Virus record (IMG/VR): IMGVR_UViG_3300047472_000309
Coordinates: 246,655-310,654 of that record
DNA length: 64,000 nt
Source of the DNA: a virus
Direction: 5' to 3' (one strand)
The notes below the pieces were generated by a model, which saw nothing but the letters and a program-made list of their open reading frames with translations, made no database searches and was not told the DNA's origin. The position numbers and the translations under genes were made by a program. Numbering within the stretch: the stretch's first letter is position 1; each line of letters starts with the position of its first letter. Positions 36,454 through 45,444 of the stretch are shown here, piece by piece.

Positions 36454-36481
36454 CGCTATGCCGCTAAAGCAGCCGTACTAC

Positions 36482-38164
36482 TTACTTGTCCAGCGTTTGC
36501 AGATGCTCGATCACTGCCTGACGATGCTTCGGCTCGAGCTTCTCGAGAAAGCCGATGACCGAATGAATCACGCGGTGCTCGAACTCTTCTGCTTCTTGCA
36601 TGATCTTGTCGATCAGACCGAGACCGGCTTCCGTCACCTGATGTTCCGGTTCAGCCGGGGTTTCCGGCTCGGGCGGCAGTTCGGGGGTCGGATCGACCGG
36701 CACTTCCGGCGTGACCGGTTGCACCGGGTCCGTCGGTTGCGTCGAATCAGCGGGCGTGTCACCAGCAGCCGGTTGCTCAGCGCCAGTAGCATCGCCACCA
36801 GTCGAAGCATCGGTTGCCGGAGCCGAAGGGTCCGTGGCGTCACCTGCCACCGGATCGGTCGGTTCTTGTGCCGGGGTGTCACCACCTTCTGCCGGGGTAT
36901 CGCTACCTGCGGCTTGGTCGTCGGCGGGCGCGGCCGGTTGTTCCGGGGTCACTGGGTCCGTGGTTTGACCAGCGTCCGCTGCATCGCTGTCTCCAGCCGG
37001 AGCGCCAGTGTCGGCAGCCGGGGCTTCGGGAGCGGCAGGAACGTCACCCGTAGCGACGTCTTGATCAGCAGCCGGAGCTGCCGGTTCGTCCGTCGTTGCT
37101 GCGGGTGCATCGGCCGGAGCTTCAGCCGCCGGATCTTGCACGACAGGTGCAGCATCGGTCGAAGCGCTATCTGCCGCGGCCGGTTGTGCATCAGTGCCCG
37201 CGTCTTGAGCGACAGGGCTATCCGTTGCTGCTCCTGCAGCGTCTGCCGCAGGTTGGTCTTGTTGTGCATCATTCGAATCCGTCGATGCAGCAGGGGCTTC
37301 CGGTTGAACAGCAACCGGGGCCGGGTCCACTGCTACCGGTTGTTCCGGCACGACGCCTGCATTGGCTGCCGGATCGACTTCAGCGGGTGCCGGTTCGACT
37401 TGGTCGTCGGCGGGGGCTGCAGGCACTTCCGGCTGGACTTCGGCCGGTTGGTCTGCAGGTTGTTCAGCGGGCGTGTCCACAGCCGGGGCGACCGGATCGG
37501 TCGACGACGGTTGGGTCTGCTCGATGACTTCTTCGTCCGAGGGCGAGGCGGGGACAGGTTGAACCGCAACCGGTTCATCCGATTCTGCGGGAGCTTGGGC
37601 CGGATCGACAGCTACGGGAGCTGCCGGATCTTGAGCCGCTGTATCGCCAGCGTCGGTTCCCGAAACGGGTTGCGTCTCTTGTCCAGCATCGACTGCCGGG
37701 GTATCCGTCGCTGCAGGTACGTCAGCGACGAGCGGGTCTGCTCCAGCGGGCGCAACTTCAGGCGCCACGACCGGTTCGACCGCGCTGCTATCCACATCTG
37801 CAGAACCTGCTCCTGCGTCAGCGGCGGGTTGTTCTTGCGTTGCATTGGCTTGTACATCGTCCGTTGCCGGAGCGACGTCCGTCGTGGCCGGGGTAGCAGC
37901 TGCGGCGGCTGCGGCGGCTTGCGCGACGTTGGCAGCAGCTTGGGCAACCGTAATCCCTGCCGGTTGGATCAGCCCGTGACTGTCGAGCTCTTCACCTTCT
38001 TGCAGCGAGTACTGTTGCGCTTGGCCGTTGCTATCGAGGTACGTCACGACGATTTGGCTTGCGGACGAAACAGGCGCAGACTGGTCTTGATCTGCGGCTG
38101 GAATGTTATTGGTTTGACCAGCTTCCGCTTGCTGGTCTTGCGTTTGCGCTTGCACGTCCGACAT
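36482..38164 (-). CDS. Ala/Pro/Asp-rich low-complexity protein with conserved ends, 560 aa
   Basis: ATG at 38164 (MSDVQAQTQD) follows AGGAGAG. Residues about 25-75 hold a module (VVTYLDSNGQAQQYSLQEGE, GLIQPAGITVAQAA) shared with the next gene upstream. Residues about 80-500 are low-complexity, rich in Ala, Pro, Asp, Gln, Thr and Val, with short irregular repeats such as AADAGA and PAAPADDQ, acidic and probably unstructured. The last 50 residues are a helix (GLIDKIMQEAEEFEHRVIHS) matching the neighbour's C-terminal domain start. Possibly a virion-internal or scaffold-like protein; function unknown. Confidence 0.6.
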   Translation of the reverse strand: MSDVQAQTQDQQAEAGQTNNIPAADQDQSAPVSSASQIVVTYLDSNGQAQQYSLQEGEELDSHGLIQPAGITVAQAAANVAQAAAAAAAATPATTDVAPATDDVQANATQEQPAADAGAGSADVDSSAVEPVVAPEVAPAGADPLVADVPAATDTPAVDAGQETQPVSGTDAGDTAAQDPAAPVAVDPAQAPAESDEPVAVQPVPASPSDEEVIEQTQPSSTDPVAPAVDTPAEQPADQPAEVQPEVPAAPADDQVEPAPAEVDPAANAGVVPEQPVAVDPAPVAVQPEAPAASTDSNDAQQDQPAADAAGAATDSPVAQDAGTDAQPAAADSASTDAAPVVQDPAAEAPADAPAATTDEPAAPAADQDVATGDVPAAPEAPAADTGAPAGDSDAADAGQTTDPVTPEQPAAPADDQAAGSDTPAEGGDTPAQEPTDPVAGDATDPSAPATDASTGGDATGAEQPAAGDTPADSTQPTDPVQPVTPEVPVDPTPELPPEPETPAEPEHQVTEAGLGLIDKIMQEAEEFEHRVIHSVIGFLEKLEPKHRQAVIEHLQTLDK

Positions 38165-38197
38165 TACTACTCTCCTGGTTGGGTTATGGAGCATAAG

Positions 38198-38223
38198 CAG
38201 CGCTCCATAGAATTGGAGCGCTG
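38198..38223 (-). terminator. Hairpin between the two Ala/Pro-rich paralogues
   Basis: CAGCGCTCCA (38198-38207) pairs perfectly with TGGAGCGCTG (38214-38223) around TAGAAT. It lies between the stop at 38261 and the start at 38164, with GCATAAG on its left. Confidence 0.65.
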
Positions 38224-38260
38224 GAAGTTTATTTTGCTTATGCTTGCAACCCGTCTAGGA

Positions 38261-39355
38261 TCAGACGTTATAAAAGTTGAAGAGCTTCTGTTTGCCTGCT
38301 TCGTTCACGCCGAATTCGAGCGTCTTCTTGAAGTCGACTTGGCGCGTGGCGGCTTGACGACCTTGCGGATTGGCCGTGAGTTTGACCAGGTTCAGCAGGC
38401 GCTGGAAGGCCGCCTGATCTTCCTTCGAGAGCGTGACATGCTCCATCGCACGGAACACGTACGACTCATGGAACACGCCGTCCTTCTGGCTATGGAAGGC
38501 CTTGAGGATCGTACCCCAGACGAGGAAGAAGTCGTCGTCCAGACGGTTGACCGTGTTGCTCAGCACGCGGTAGAGCTGCACTTGCCAGCGCACCGTGTCG
38601 GCGGTCGACAGGAGCTTCTTCGGCGCCATGCTGTCGATGTAGCCCTTCAGTTGCTCGAGCACCATCTTGCCGTAGGTGCTGGCTTCTTCTTTGGCCTTCT
38701 CGATGAGCGCATCGATTTCGGCGAGCACCGGCGCAGCAGGCTTCACCGGCGTGTCGGTCACGACTGCCACCGTAGCGGGCGCGGCCGGAGCCACCGGGAC
38801 CGCCGGAGCGATCTGAGCCGCGCCCGATTGCGACGGGCCGGTCTGGGTCACGGTACCGGACACGCCGGTCGATTGCGGTGCGGCTTGCGGTGCAGGCGTG
38901 ATGGTTTCGATCTTGAGTACGCCGTTAGCGGCTTGCTCTTCGTTCGGTTGCTGCACTTCGTCCTGGGGTTGATTGTCTTGCGTACTCACTTCTTCTCCTT
39001 CGGAGGGGTTGGTTGCTTGGATGGCGTCACCTTCACGGACACCGGAACTTTGCGGTTCACTACCGCTTGAAACGGACTGGGATTCATCAGCACTCCCGTT
39101 ATCGGTACCAGCAGCATCCGAGGTCGTCGTGCCAGCGGCGACAGATGCACTTGCGTTTCCCGCCGGTTCAGCCACGTTGACCAGGCCGTTATTCGGCGTA
39201 AAGTCCAGGCGCTTGGCGGCGTCGAGAACGGACAGACCAGCAGGCTGAATCAAGCCCGTTGCCGGATCGTGCGACTCACCGGCCTGCAAGATATAGTAAG
39301 CCTTCTTGCCGTCTTCCTTCTCATAAAGAACACGTGCAACAGGAATATTACCCAT
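38261..39355 (-). CDS. Ala/Pro-rich protein with helical C-terminal domain, paralogue of the downstream gene, 364 aa
   Basis: ATG at 39355 (MGNIPVARVLY) follows AAGGAAGC; the open frame extends further but overlaps the RNAP gene. N-terminal module VLYEKEDGKKAYYILQAGES and GLIQPAGLSVLDAA matches the 560-residue paralogue. The middle is Ala/Pro/Ser/Gln-rich. The C-terminal part from about residue 205 (EIDALIEKAKEEASTYGKMV) is a folded helical domain of about 160 residues, of which the neighbour retains only the first third. The two genes arose by duplication with loss or expansion. Location next to an RNAP subunit suggests a virion protein. Confidence 0.6.
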   Translation of the reverse strand: MGNIPVARVLYEKEDGKKAYYILQAGESHDPATGLIQPAGLSVLDAAKRLDFTPNNGLVNVAEPAGNASASVAAGTTTSDAAGTDNGSADESQSVSSGSEPQSSGVREGDAIQATNPSEGEEVSTQDNQPQDEVQQPNEEQAANGVLKIETITPAPQAAPQSTGVSGTVTQTGPSQSGAAQIAPAVPVAPAAPATVAVVTDTPVKPAAPVLAEIDALIEKAKEEASTYGKMVLEQLKGYIDSMAPKKLLSTADTVRWQVQLYRVLSNTVNRLDDDFFLVWGTILKAFHSQKDGVFHESYVFRAMEHVTLSKEDQAAFQRLLNLVKLTANPQGRQAATRQVDFKKTLEFGVNEAGKQKLFNFYNV

Positions 39356-39366
39356 GATTAGCTTCC

Positions 39367-40743
39367 TTACTGGATGGCTGTCTTGTAGTCCATGTGAGCG
39401 AGCGCGAGCTGCGTGCCGTGCATCTTCTTCATGAACAACAGCATGAACTTCGAACCATATTCCGAGACCGCTGAAGAAAGGGCCGTGGGATTCATGGACA
39501 GACGCGGTCCTACGCACACCGCGCAGTAGTCGGTCTTCTCCAGGCGACAGAACATCGGTGAGCGAATCATCACCTTCTTGCCGAGGTAGTTGCCAATGGA
39601 CTCATCGGTAAGCTTCTCGCTCCCGCCATCGGTCACTACACTAAAGCCCATGTACTTCTTCTTGTTCTCGTCCGAGAGCGCCACGGGATTACCCAGGGTC
39701 GACTGACAGTCTTCTTGCGTGACCATCATGTTCGACGAGGCCCGCAGCAGCCATTTCACGGCTTCACCACCGAGCATGGTTTCGGCACCCCGGTTGTACG
39801 AACCGGCGCGCAGCGAGTCGTTCATGATCGGGAACTTGTTGATGTCCCAGCCTTCTGACAGGGAGTTCTGGATCAGGTCCACATCAATGCCGTCATCCAG
39901 ACCGGCTTCGGCACCCGTCATCAGGAAGAGCTTGCGGCGCACCACCTTACGGGACTTGTTCTCGATCAGGAAGCCTTCTGCATCGTCACCCTTCAGGTAC
40001 TCGGAGTCGAACTTGATCAGCTCCGCATCGATCTTGGCAATCACCGCCGGATCATGCAGCTTATCCTTGTACTGTTCGAGCAACTGCGCTTTAAGCTCCG
40101 CCAAGCCAGGGGGTGCCGTCATGGCTTTGCGGGTCGCAGCCGGGACCCACAACTGCGTGAAGCCTGCCAGGTAGAAAGCGGCGTCCGCCATCACCAGGTA
40201 CTCTTTCACGTAAATCGGTAGCTTGCGCGGGTCACCCATATCCAGCACAGGTGAACCGGTCTGATCCGCGACGGCCGCATTGGCGGCGAGCACCATTTGG
40301 GCATTGGGGGTCGGATCATCCTGCAAGCGCGGCAGCACCATCTTCTCGATCGCCCCTGGGCTAATACGGCCCGAGAGGTAAGGGATCTTGTTGCCGAAGG
40401 GGTAGGCTGCGATCACCCAGTTAAAGAAGTACTGGCCGTAGCTAGTGGGGTGCGGGGTCGACTCTGTGTAGTTCGGAATCTGCCCGGCTTGCAGCAGGAA
40501 CTTGTCCTTGTGATTAAACGGTGCAATCGCGGGATCACACCCTTCCAGCGGCAGCAGTTCGTTGGTGTTCTCCGGATTGACAAAGAAGTACCCGGTGCGC
40601 GTCTGCACGATGCGATACGGGTACATGTCTTTCTGATAGTCTTCCGGGCCCTCGTTGATGATCGAGAACGCGGAGATGACCCACGCGCGACGACGGTATA
40701 AGCCCGCATTCATCGCCGCGATAAAGTAGTCGTGTTTCTTCAT
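39367..40743 (-). CDS. RNA polymerase beta'-like C-terminal subunit, probable virion RNAP (gp80-like), 458 aa
   Basis: Near the C-terminus KKVMIRSPMFCRLEKTDYCA followed by VCVGPRLS aligns with the conserved beta' region VRSxLTCxxxxGVCxxCYG, including the Cys pairs. It continues SAVSEYGSKFMLLFMKKMHG where bacterial beta' has the GxxAAQSIGEPGTQLTMRxFH trigger-loop segment. In phiKZ relatives beta' is split and two versions exist; this lone gene, away from the beta-like gene, probably belongs to the virion RNAP injected with DNA. GTGAGGTGAACC precedes the start. The catalytic NADFDGD motif is not expected in this half. Confidence 0.7.
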   Translation of the reverse strand: MKKHDYFIAAMNAGLYRRRAWVISAFSIINEGPEDYQKDMYPYRIVQTRTGYFFVNPENTNELLPLEGCDPAIAPFNHKDKFLLQAGQIPNYTESTPHPTSYGQYFFNWVIAAYPFGNKIPYLSGRISPGAIEKMVLPRLQDDPTPNAQMVLAANAAVADQTGSPVLDMGDPRKLPIYVKEYLVMADAAFYLAGFTQLWVPAATRKAMTAPPGLAELKAQLLEQYKDKLHDPAVIAKIDAELIKFDSEYLKGDDAEGFLIENKSRKVVRRKLFLMTGAEAGLDDGIDVDLIQNSLSEGWDINKFPIMNDSLRAGSYNRGAETMLGGEAVKWLLRASSNMMVTQEDCQSTLGNPVALSDENKKKYMGFSVVTDGGSEKLTDESIGNYLGKKVMIRSPMFCRLEKTDYCAVCVGPRLSMNPTALSSAVSEYGSKFMLLFMKKMHGTQLALAHMDYKTAIQ

Positions 40744-42387: not shown

Positions 42388-44040
42388 ATGGAAGGTCAAG
42401 AGAACAGCAATATTCATACGCCGTCAGTGACCACTGCGGCGGACGTACCGCCCGAACTGCGTACACCTACGACGGCAGTTGACCCGGTAGTCGATCCCGT
42501 GGTCGAACCGGCGTCGATCCAGCCGCCTGCACCGGACGCCTCGGAAGGCGTACACGAAGTGCTGGGTGGGCTGCCTGAAGATACGCTGGGCGATGCGCCG
42601 GTGGCATCGCAGGAAGACAGTGAACTGAAGGTCGAAGAAACCCCCAAGCGCTTGCCGCAAACCGACACGACGACCGTCAAGCAAGAGCAGGCCGTGTTCA
42701 TTCCGCTGGGTGTGGCGTTCGATTCGAACGGCATCACGCTGGCTGTGCCCGGTGCGCGTGAAGACGAGCTGCAAGAAGCGCTCGCCAAGATGCCCAACAC
42801 CGATCTGGGTGCGACGGCCGAAGGGCGCGAATGGATTGCTGTGGCCCAAGCAGGCTACCGGAATGCCACGCCGCGCAAGATGCTCACCGACATCGACGTG
42901 CGCGAAGGCGCGCTGTGGGAACAAGCGGTCAAGTCCGAGCGCGGTGGCATTCAGGCTTCGCGTCCCAAGCAAGCTGATACGGCAGGCGTCAGTCTGCGCG
43001 GTGAAGCCGGTGTGCTGGCCGTGCGTCAAGAAGTGGGTCTGGGTGGCATCATCCGCATTCCGCTGTGGCACTCCGGTTTTCACATTACGCTGAAGACACC
43101 GGGCGATGCGGCCATCCTGGAGCTGGAGCGTCGCATTACCGACGAGAAGGTACTGCTCGGTCGCATGACCAACGGCATGCTCTTTTCCAATACGTCGGTG
43201 TTCATTGCCGAGTACCTGGTCGAATTCGCCATCCGCCATCTGTACGACACGTCGCTGCGTAACAAGGAGAACATCTTCTCCAAGATCGTCTCGCACGACA
43301 TCCAGCATCTGGCGTGGGGCCTGGCCACCGCAATCTGGCCAACGGGCTTTCAGTACGTGCGCTCGGTGCTGGGTGAAACCGACGCGCAGAACAAGGTGGT
43401 GAAGGACAAGATCGCCATCGGCAAGCTGCAGTTCACCGATACGTCGCAACTGTCGAAGTGGCAGATCAACCACATGACCTCGGTGACGACCGGCTCGATG
43501 ACGGACGACTCGATCAAGAAGTACCGCGAGGAGTTCCTGAATCAGACACCGCGTAAGGTGCAAGTCACCGATAAGGTCGCGATCACGCTGAAGGTACCGA
43601 CGCTTGCCGAGCATATCGCCTCGGGCCAGAAGTGGGTCAACGGGATCGTCGTGATGACGGACCAGGTGTTTGGCATGGAGCAAGATGTCGATGAGCGTAA
43701 CCGCTTTATCTACGAACAGGGCCAAGCCACCTACATGCGTCAGTACGGGCACTGGATCGAATCGATCGAGCTCTCGAACGGCGCGATTGTGGAAGACCCG
43801 GAAACCATCGACCAGACGATCGACGCGCTCTCCGCTGACGACACGATTCGCAACAAGTTCGTGGATGCAGTGGTGAAGTACATCGAAGATACCACGGTCT
43901 CGATGATCGCCGTGCCGACGGTGGCCGCCAGCGAAGAACAGAAGTATCCGCGCTGGCCGCGGTTGTTGCCGATTGATGCGATGGCAACTTTTTTTACCCT
44001 ACTCGACCAGAAGGTCTCGCAGATCCGGGCGCGCAGCTAG
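42388..44040 (+). CDS. Probable virion/tail protein, 0-frame product, 550 aa
   Basis: It has a Pro/Val/Glu-rich N-terminus (about residues 15-100), then an alpha/beta body: AGVLAVRQEVGLGGIIRIPL near 215, TPGDAAILELERRITDEKVL, a membrane-neutral helical part and FNRFIYEQGQATYMRQYGHW-like segments. No enzymatic motif. It ends about 15 codons after a T-TTT-TTT slippery heptamer at 43989-43995; a -1 shift there would give a 705-residue product by reading into the next frame. The two-product arrangement (short and long) is typical of phage tail assembly chaperones, but this protein is much larger than those known to me. Confidence 0.6.
   Translation: MEGQENSNIHTPSVTTAADVPPELRTPTTAVDPVVDPVVEPASIQPPAPDASEGVHEVLGGLPEDTLGDAPVASQEDSELKVEETPKRLPQTDTTTVKQEQAVFIPLGVAFDSNGITLAVPGAREDELQEALAKMPNTDLGATAEGREWIAVAQAGYRNATPRKMLTDIDVREGALWEQAVKSERGGIQASRPKQADTAGVSLRGEAGVLAVRQEVGLGGIIRIPLWHSGFHITLKTPGDAAILELERRITDEKVLLGRMTNGMLFSNTSVFIAEYLVEFAIRHLYDTSLRNKENIFSKIVSHDIQHLAWGLATAIWPTGFQYVRSVLGETDAQNKVVKDKIAIGKLQFTDTSQLSKWQINHMTSVTTGSMTDDSIKKYREEFLNQTPRKVQVTDKVAITLKVPTLAEHIASGQKWVNGIVVMTDQVFGMEQDVDERNRFIYEQGQATYMRQYGHWIESIELSNGAIVEDPETIDQTIDALSADDTIRNKFVDAVVKYIEDTTVSMIAVPTVAASEEQKYPRWPRLLPIDAMATFFTLLDQKVSQIRARS
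43989..43995 (+). promoter_or_regulatory. Predicted -1 frameshift site T-TTT-TTT
   Basis: In the 0 frame the codons are GCA ACT TTT TTT ACC, so the seven T form a perfect X-XXY-YYZ slippery heptamer. A GACC-AGAA-GGTC stem (44005-44016) starts nine bases after it, a usual spacer for a stimulator though the stem is short. The -1 frame is open to 44502 with no stop. Confidence 0.6.
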
Positions 44041-44504
44041 TTGCAAAACACGTCGGTCACCCATTCTTTGGCGAGCATGTCGATGTAGTCGCGAAGCTAA
44101 GCGAACTCATTGCCACCGCGCCCAAGATGTGTGTGACCGACACGCGACAGCTGTTGCTGCACCGCTACGAGACGGACTTTGGGATTTACAATCACGACAT
44201 CTCTGATTTCGAGAAGAATCCCTTAGCCCTTATCCGGATGCATTCACGTGAGGATTCATACACGGGTAGTCAACTGGCCGAGCGCATCAGGCAATATCAC
44301 GATCGACACGTGTGGGAAGTGACGCACGATCCGCTCCATGTCTTTCTGAACTATCCGCGCCACATGGTGCTGGACATTCTGGAGCTTGCGGACAAGGCGT
44401 TGCGGGATAAGACCGCAGCACTGGTGAAGGAAGGCAAGGCCCTAGAGGATCGGGTTGCCGGGCTGGCATCTCAGAACGGCGGCATGATTCCACCACCGCA
44501 CTAA
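43995..44504 (+). CDS. -1 frame extension of the 550-aa gene, about 169 codons
   Basis: From the slippery site the -1 frame reads YPTRPEGLADPGAQLVAKHV, then HPFFGEHVDVVAKLSELIAT and on to the stop at 44502-44504. The first internal ATG at 44127 has no Shine-Dalgarno (the preceding bases are ACCGCGCCCAAG). Translation by frameshifting from the upstream gene is therefore more likely than independent initiation. The extension is mostly helical, with FEKNPLALIRMHSREDSYTG and FLNYPRHMVLDILELADKAL, and ends with a Pro-rich GGMIPPPH. An alternative is a sequencing error in the T run that splits one gene. Confidence 0.6.
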   Translation, partial: YPTRPEGLADPGAQLVAKHVGHPFFGEHVDVVAKLSELIATAPKMCVTDTRQLLLHRYETDFGIYNHDISDFEKNPLALIRMHSREDSYTGSQLAERIRQYHDRHVWEVTHDPLHVFLNYPRHMVLDILELADKALRDKTAALVKEGKALEDRVAGLASQNGGMIPPPH

Positions 44505-44516
44505 CCGGGGCCGTCA

Positions 44517-44969
44517 ATGATCATTTACGATGAACCGCGAAACATCTTTGAAGTAACGGAGCAAACGCTCGTTAATCCCGTTAACACGCAAGGTGTGATG
44601 GGCGCTGGCTTAGCATTGGCTTTTCGCAGTACCTTTCCGGGTCTGTTTGAAGAGTATCGCGAGGCGTGCCAGCAAGAGGTGTTTACGCGGCGAGGTTTCT
44701 TCGTGTATGACGTTGACGCTTCGCGCAAGGTGTTGTGTTTGCCGACTAAGCGAGAATGGCGTCATCCTTCCAGACTGGAATGGATTGAAGAAGGTCTTTG
44801 GTATCTATCGAGAGAGTATGAGAACTACGGGATTACCTCACTGGCGATTCCCGAGGTAGGCTGCGGGCGAGGTCAGTTAGGTTGGGCGGATGTGCGCCCA
44901 CTGATCTATCAGTACCTGGACCCTATCGCGTTACCAGTGGGGATTTGTTTAAGCCCCTTTGCAGTCTAA
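44517..44969 (+). CDS. Macrodomain protein, DarG-like ADP-ribosyl hydrolase, 150 aa
   Basis: A single macrodomain covers the protein. NPVNTQGVMGAGLALAF (residues 20-36) is the first ADP-ribose-binding loop with N20, N23 and the Gly-rich turn. LPTKREWRHPS (75-85) matches the PTKxxWRxxS segment of DarG, with K78 in the place of the lysine important for DarG. IPEVGCGRGQLGW (111-123) is the second binding loop. DarG removes ADP-ribose from DNA bases placed by the toxin DarT. A phage copy could undo ADP-ribosylation by host DarTG-type defence (inference). GGGG precedes the start. Confidence 0.85.
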   Translation: MIIYDEPRNIFEVTEQTLVNPVNTQGVMGAGLALAFRSTFPGLFEEYREACQQEVFTRRGFFVYDVDASRKVLCLPTKREWRHPSRLEWIEEGLWYLSREYENYGITSLAIPEVGCGRGQLGWADVRPLIYQYLDPIALPVGICLSPFAV

Positions 44970-44985
44970 CTGACTGGGAACGACG

Positions 44986-45444
44986 ATGATCATCTACGAA
45001 GCAGAGCGCGAACAGTTACGTGCAGAAGAGCAGGCCCTTCTCACGCCCATCAATATCGACGCCGTCGGAGGCGGGGGTTTGCCTGCGGCGTTTCGCTATG
45101 GCTTTCCCGGCCTCTTTAAAGCGTATTGCTGGGCCATGAAAAAGGGCATCTTCGAAAACGATAGCGTATTTGTCTACGATGTATCGGACGTACGCAAGAT
45201 CGTCTGCATGCCGATGAAGCAGCACCCTCGCTACAGTGCCGAAGAGAAGCTCGAGTATCTTGAAGAAAGCCTGATGGTAGTGGCCACCAGCTACCATCAA
45301 CATGGCATCTCGTCGATGGCGATCAACGAAATCGGTTACGGTGACGTGGATCTGCCCTGGGACAAGGTGAGGCCGATCATCCAGCGCTGTTTTGGACCGA
45401 TCGATTTACCGGTGGGGATTTATCGGGGAGTAGTACCTGTGTAA
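44986..45444 (+). CDS. Diverged second macrodomain-like protein, 152 aa
   Basis: It aligns without gaps to the preceding macrodomain over the first 78 residues (MIIY start, PIN at 21-23, GGGGL, PGLF, VFVYDV, PMK with K78 kept) and so is a tandem duplicate. The binding loops are altered: NTQGVMGAG became NIDAVGGGG, and VGCGRGQLGW became IGYGDVDLPW, losing Cys116 and Arg118. Ligand specificity or activity is probably changed; it may bind a related nucleotide or act as a partner. GGGAACGACG precedes the start. Confidence 0.75.
   Translation: MIIYEAEREQLRAEEQALLTPINIDAVGGGGLPAAFRYGFPGLFKAYCWAMKKGIFENDSVFVYDVSDVRKIVCMPMKQHPRYSAEEKLEYLEESLMVVATSYHQHGISSMAINEIGYGDVDLPWDKVRPIIQRCFGPIDLPVGIYRGVVPV

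Follow-up and report, generated by a model that had tools for sequence, protein, structure and literature searches.

Probable programmed -1 frameshifting in a putative gp26-like tail assembly chaperone gene of phiKZ-like jumbo phages

The gene at positions 42388-44040 of the DNA analysed here very probably encodes, as judged from sequence comparison, the short tail assembly chaperone of a phiKZ-like phage, and a ribosomal slip near its 3′ end would yield a long form of 705 residues. Programmed -1 frameshifting at its T_TTT_TTT heptamer is strongly supported by the comparison of relatives described below. The window, that is, the whole stretch of 64,000 nucleotides, is the 3′ end of a virus record of 310,654 bases (IMGVR_UViG_3300047472_000309), which is related to the phiKZ-type (Chimalliviridae) jumbo phages; the closest annotated relative of the window is Burkholderia phage FLC9. 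In the databases, the base ORF and its extension are entered as two separate genes of unassigned function in all annotated records. The features of the locus are the following:

42388-44040, + strand: base ORF, short form of 550 aa; homologue of phiKZ gp077 and PhiPA3 gp074, putative gp26-like tail assembly chaperone
43989-43995, + strand: slippery heptamer T_TTT_TTT in the codons ACT TTT TTT ACC (Phe535-Phe536)
43995-44504, + strand: -1 frame extension of 169 codons plus TAA; PHROG 12109, homologue of PhiPA3 gp073
43996-44040, + strand: dual-coding overlap of the base-frame tail (14 codons plus TAG) and the -1 frame, with synonymous change strongly reduced

Near its 3′ end the base ORF reads GCA ACT TTT TTT ACC, followed by 14 sense codons and TAG. 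The -1 frame is open over 43977-44501 and closes with the TAA at 44502-44504, and a slip at the second TTT gives 536 + 169 = 705 residues. The heptamer in these codons, the open frame and the 550/705-residue pair had been described in an earlier note on this DNA and were all reproduced. The same note took ATG 44127 for the only internal start of the -1 frame and saw no ribosome-binding site there; it is the first ATG of that frame and has no SD-like motif before it, but it is not the sole one. A frame of 169 codons stayed open by chance in 90 of 20,000 (0.45%) Markov-1 simulations of the same stretch. When the ORFs of at least 100 codons in the window were scanned for four kinds of heptamer (T_TTT_TTT/C and A_AAA_AAA/G), this was the only one whose -1 frame outruns the stop of its own ORF. 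TTTTTTTACC is found once in the whole record. Separately, a 45-base stretch of the same record (G000:C1:179203-179247) shares 80% identity with a portion of the extension region, perhaps by chance.

Homologues of the base protein were found with tblastn in 182 public phage records, the nucleus-forming model phages among them, and further loci were taken from IMG/VR and from bacterial assemblies. We compared 88 loci from named phages, metagenomic viruses and bacterial contigs, with exact duplicates taken out and some near-identical ones kept; they include fourteen named genera of the Chimalliviridae and span 27-61% GC. A slip site at the aligned Phe-Phe near the end of the base gene, together with an open -1 extension, was present in every one of them, which answers the suggestion of the earlier note to look for both in related phages. 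The site is a canonical T_TTT_TTN in 78 loci (T_TTT_TTT 54, T_TTT_TTC 22, T_TTT_TTG and T_TTT_TTA one each), and the remaining 10 are slip-compatible, with G or A before TTT_TTT/C in 8 and A_CTT_TTT and G_GTT_TTT in 2. The distance from site to base stop ranges over 9-44 codons and the length of the extension over 149-192 codons. Away from the site, 33% of the Phe codons of the base genes are TTT, and their 42,711 codons contain just 2 further T_TTT_TTN in frame. Considering that the site is kept in all relatives, a chance origin is untenable. One locus (L104) was considered as an exception and dismissed; the same T7 site is there, and its base frame is broken upstream of the site. The phiKZ-like chaperone loci L098-L101 come from isolate assemblies of Caballeronia and Paraburkholderia, in which their contigs measure 74-493 kb; these jumbo phages may be carried, integrated or contaminating.

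The identity of the base protein was approached through families and predicted folds. The PHROGs of both halves (4585 for the base, 12109 for the extension) have no assigned function, the window protein is without a match in Pfam, and T4_baseplate (PF12322) matched 4 of 52 members weakly, the lowest E being 0.0087, and none of the 23 in another set. A gp26 profile was built from T4, phiAS5-like phages and cyanophages and aligned by hhalign with the base family, giving E 1.1e-6 and a probability of 91%; the score was 55, against 24 at most for the controls (100 column-shuffled profiles and one reversed), and the alignment ends exactly at the slip-site Phe-Phe. It was also possible to see that the C-terminus of T4 gp26, ...AVPIKCPECGKTHAHVIRGLKEFFELL, resembles the CPxC...FFTLL end of most phiKZ-like members. 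The AlphaFold2 model of the base is good for residues 94-550, residues 1-93 being predicted as disordered, and that of the extension is helical and good over most of its length. In a Foldseek search of a viral library with the base, phiKZ-like proteins came first, followed by T4-like "baseplate hub assembly protein" and hub-subunit models (E 7e-5 to 1e-2), which cover part of the base only, and there was a weak match to a pre-tape-measure chaperone of a Caulobacter phage. The PDB gave no convincing match by sequence or by VIA-align, from which a new fold does not follow. By these profile and model comparisons, the base protein and T4 gp26, the short chaperone of tail/hub assembly in T4-like phages, are homologous, and the likeness to tail assembly chaperones drawn in the earlier note is upheld by both hhalign and Foldseek.

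PMC3004832 lists the T4 proteins gp26 and gp51 as hub assembly chaperones, and in PMC10885494 they are handled as tail assembly chaperones. T4 gp26 is homologous to the base described here, but it is without a slip site, and gp26 and gp51 are two separate genes; according to the passage of PMC10885494 that refers to Vladimirov et al. 2022, the T4-like phages have a short chaperone gene and, as the long form, a separate fusion gene. In the gp26 of cyanophages and phiAS5-like phages, a slip site at the aligned Phe-Phe and a -1 extension were present in 70 of 70 distinct genes (L129-L213), the site being T_TTT_TTC in 69/70 and T_TTT_TTT in 1/70. As in the phiKZ-like loci, the base is homologous, the site lies near the end of the gene and the extension is mostly annotated as a gene of its own, here as gp51 in several records or as a hypothetical protein. 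The two systems differ in that the cyanophage and phiAS5-like base has 240-260 aa and its extension 58-66 codons, against 550 and 169 in the window, and in that the site lies one or two codons before the stop instead of 14. The gp51 of cyanophages has been described as only ~20% as long as other gp51 (Sullivan et al. 2010, PMC3037559), a shortness that -1 frameshifting would explain. The last 50 residues of T4 gp51 can be aligned with the cyanophage extension; between that extension and the phiKZ-type one hhalign gave E 0.06, a value that is not significant and does not establish homology to the gp51 C-terminus. It is plausible that the phiKZ-like and T4-superfamily lineages inherited the shift site from a common ancestor. 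Possibly, although we lean against it, the Phe-Phe pair that ends the gp26 domain has been a -1 site since before these two lineages split, an old homologous trait of contractile-tailed phages, with the two-gene layout of T4 derived and the codon context alone, in place of an RNA stimulator, sufficient for the slip.

Gene order was compared with PhiPA3, using the phiKZ correspondences. The locus follows the order of phiKZ-like phages: virion RNA polymerase subunit, gp079-like, gp078-like and gp077-like genes. The base gene does not adjoin a tape-measure gene, its neighbours being RNA polymerase, phosphatase-like and unknown genes. Adjacency to the tape measure is usual for tail chaperones and not universal, since T4 gp26 is without it. 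In SPN3US the tape measure is the 259-kDa gp239 (PMC5694885), and gp39 and gp40, guessed to be the homologues there, are absent from the main text of the SPN3US virion paper. The conserved place next to subunits of the virion RNA polymerase and to a putative structural head protein, away from the tape measure, would also suit a reading in which the frameshift is real but the two proteins have a task in the virion or its assembly other than tail building, such as head or RNA polymerase packaging. The homology to gp26, and a shift position held in common with cyanophage gp26, make this unlikely, and the base/extension pair is best read as the tail assembly chaperone of phiKZ-like phages, of the G/GT type but of unusual size and encoded away from the tape-measure gene.

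Some other ORFs around the locus can be described here. Directly 3′ of the extension there are two adjacent paralogous ORFs (44517-44969 and 44986-45444) which match PHROG 335 (phosphatase) and look macro-domain-like by eye. Between the endolysin and the virion RNA polymerase gene, the neighbouring ORFs 36482-38194 and 38261-39517, both on the - strand, have long Ala/Pro/Asp-rich low-complexity stretches, and the long ORFs on the opposite strand there (e.g. 36458-39070) look like antisense artefacts.

During transcription, the phage RNA polymerase could slip on the T run and leave a heterogeneous mRNA, and it is in keeping with this that the phiKZ-like phages have RNA polymerases of their own and that the run reaches 7-9 T in many relatives. 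We consider it quite unlikely, considering that only five T are present in Noxifer, PS119XW, pVa-21 and L062 and that the codon phase is intact in all four, with a T before a TTN codon; the sites that end in TTC, TTA or TTG likewise keep the codon rule and not the length of the run. The five-T runs with their phase kept therefore favour ribosomal slippage.

The coding of the -1 frame was examined in 44 pairs of close relatives, in which the extension was divided into the overlap that codes in both frames, the codons that follow the base stop up to the first ATG, GTG or TTG in either member of the pair, and the rest. pN/pS was 0.34 for the codons that follow the base stop, ahead of any possible start, and 0.30 in the remaining extension. 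It follows from the former value that the codons ahead of every possible start are selected as protein, which argues strongly against an independent downstream gene. In the base frame, synonymous differences per site were ~0.46 upstream, 0.0 at the two codons of the site and 0.15-0.24 after it, which is what a functional site with dual coding behind it should show. The first start codon of the -1 frame is scattered over 13-151 codons downstream of the site (L073, L058, L102 and others), and automatic gene calling therefore cuts short or overlooks the extension in many records of jumbo phages. In SL2 (Phikzvirus) the first start is codon 85, within the conserved domain and past its conserved Y-x-x-D-Y-x-I motif, and in the record of Erwinia phage RAY the second gene is already annotated with a start upstream of the base stop. 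For a downstream ORF that is a gene in its own right, begun at an internal ATG, GTG or TTG or by coupling at the base stop, one may invoke the two genes of the annotations and the short start-to-stop distances that allow coupling in some relatives. This explanation is very unlikely, since the selection begins upstream of every possible start, the start positions are unconserved and fall within the domain in several phages, and the T run and the overlap are left unexplained. The earlier note held that a separately initiated downstream gene in relatives, or a T run giving one continuous gene, would speak against frameshifting; no relative has such a gene in a consistent place, and none has such a run.

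The probability that the split arose by an error of sequencing, or by a frameshift mutation that became fixed in a single continuous gene, is practically negligible: homopolymer runs are error-prone, but the split and its phase are identical in 88 loci from independent isolates and metagenomes, five-T sites included, and the conservation of base-frame stop codons across relatives refutes it.

Programmed -1 sites often, but not always, come with a stimulatory structure in the RNA. The earlier note mentioned a short stem downstream; this is a 4-bp hairpin that is not supported: the 100 nt downstream of the site in the window folded no more stably than their shuffled versions (z +0.88), 15 close relatives gave zero consensus pairs with RNAalifold, and the MFE profile of 81 loci had no unusual stability in the 60-nt windows after the site. 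The downstream region had no match in Rfam, and an upstream SD-like motif was absent in 78 of the 81 loci. There is no evident stimulator according to the MFE profile, RNAalifold and shuffles, as far as pseudoknot-free folds go.

The site, the coding character of the -1 frame, the conservation of both and the homology of the base to gp26 come out of the computation; that ribosomes shift, how often they do so and how the two forms share the work is what we infer. Most ribosomes would terminate at 44040 and release the 550-residue short chaperone, and a minority would go back one base at the Phe-Phe, by slippage of tRNA-Phe or, at the TTA and TTG sites, of tRNA-Leu, and add 169 codons to give the 705-residue form. 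By analogy with gpG/gpGT of lambda, whose tail chaperone model has been reviewed (PMC5009743), the body that resembles gp26 would coat the giant tape-measure protein, and the minor long form would recruit tail tube subunits by its helical extension, both forms being expected to be absent from the finished virion. The large parts, the failure to find an RNA stimulator, the place away from the tape measure, an extension with no significant match to the gp51 C-terminus and a fold match to gp26 that is partial count against this explanation as a whole.

Frameshifted tail chaperones are well known as a class, in lambda and in many other phages. The lambda-type pair has likewise a short form, a -1 long form and a site near the 3′ end, and its downstream ORF is commonly misannotated; those genes are small and directly upstream of the tape measure, whereas the gene described here is large and has virion RNA polymerase genes close by. 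A base of 550 and an extension of 169 residues are indeed unusual for a tail chaperone, as had been remarked from the sequence, and the part sizes, the disordered N-terminus of ~93 residues, the position and the lack of an evident stimulator are the departures from the classical arrangement. In Vandenendeviridae and Andersonviridae the tail assembly chaperone has a GTTTTT site (PMC12846349); there, too, a poly-T site for a -1 shift comes with an open -1 frame that is conserved. Unlike here, that gene is just upstream of the tape measure, and the likeness considered is one of site and frame. In the open literature on phiKZ, 201phi2-1 and jumbo phages, we found the chaperone of phiKZ-like phages unnamed and the frameshift unreported, and an earlier mention is possible.

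Two "hypothetical" genes become a single corrected gene model with a likely function, and the likely tail assembly chaperone of phiKZ-like phages is named. The natural series of slip sites, with 5-9 T, preceded by T, G or A and with no evident stimulator, probes the minimal bacterial -1 site, and the shared chaperone frameshift hints at common ancestry in phiKZ-like and T4-superfamily phages.
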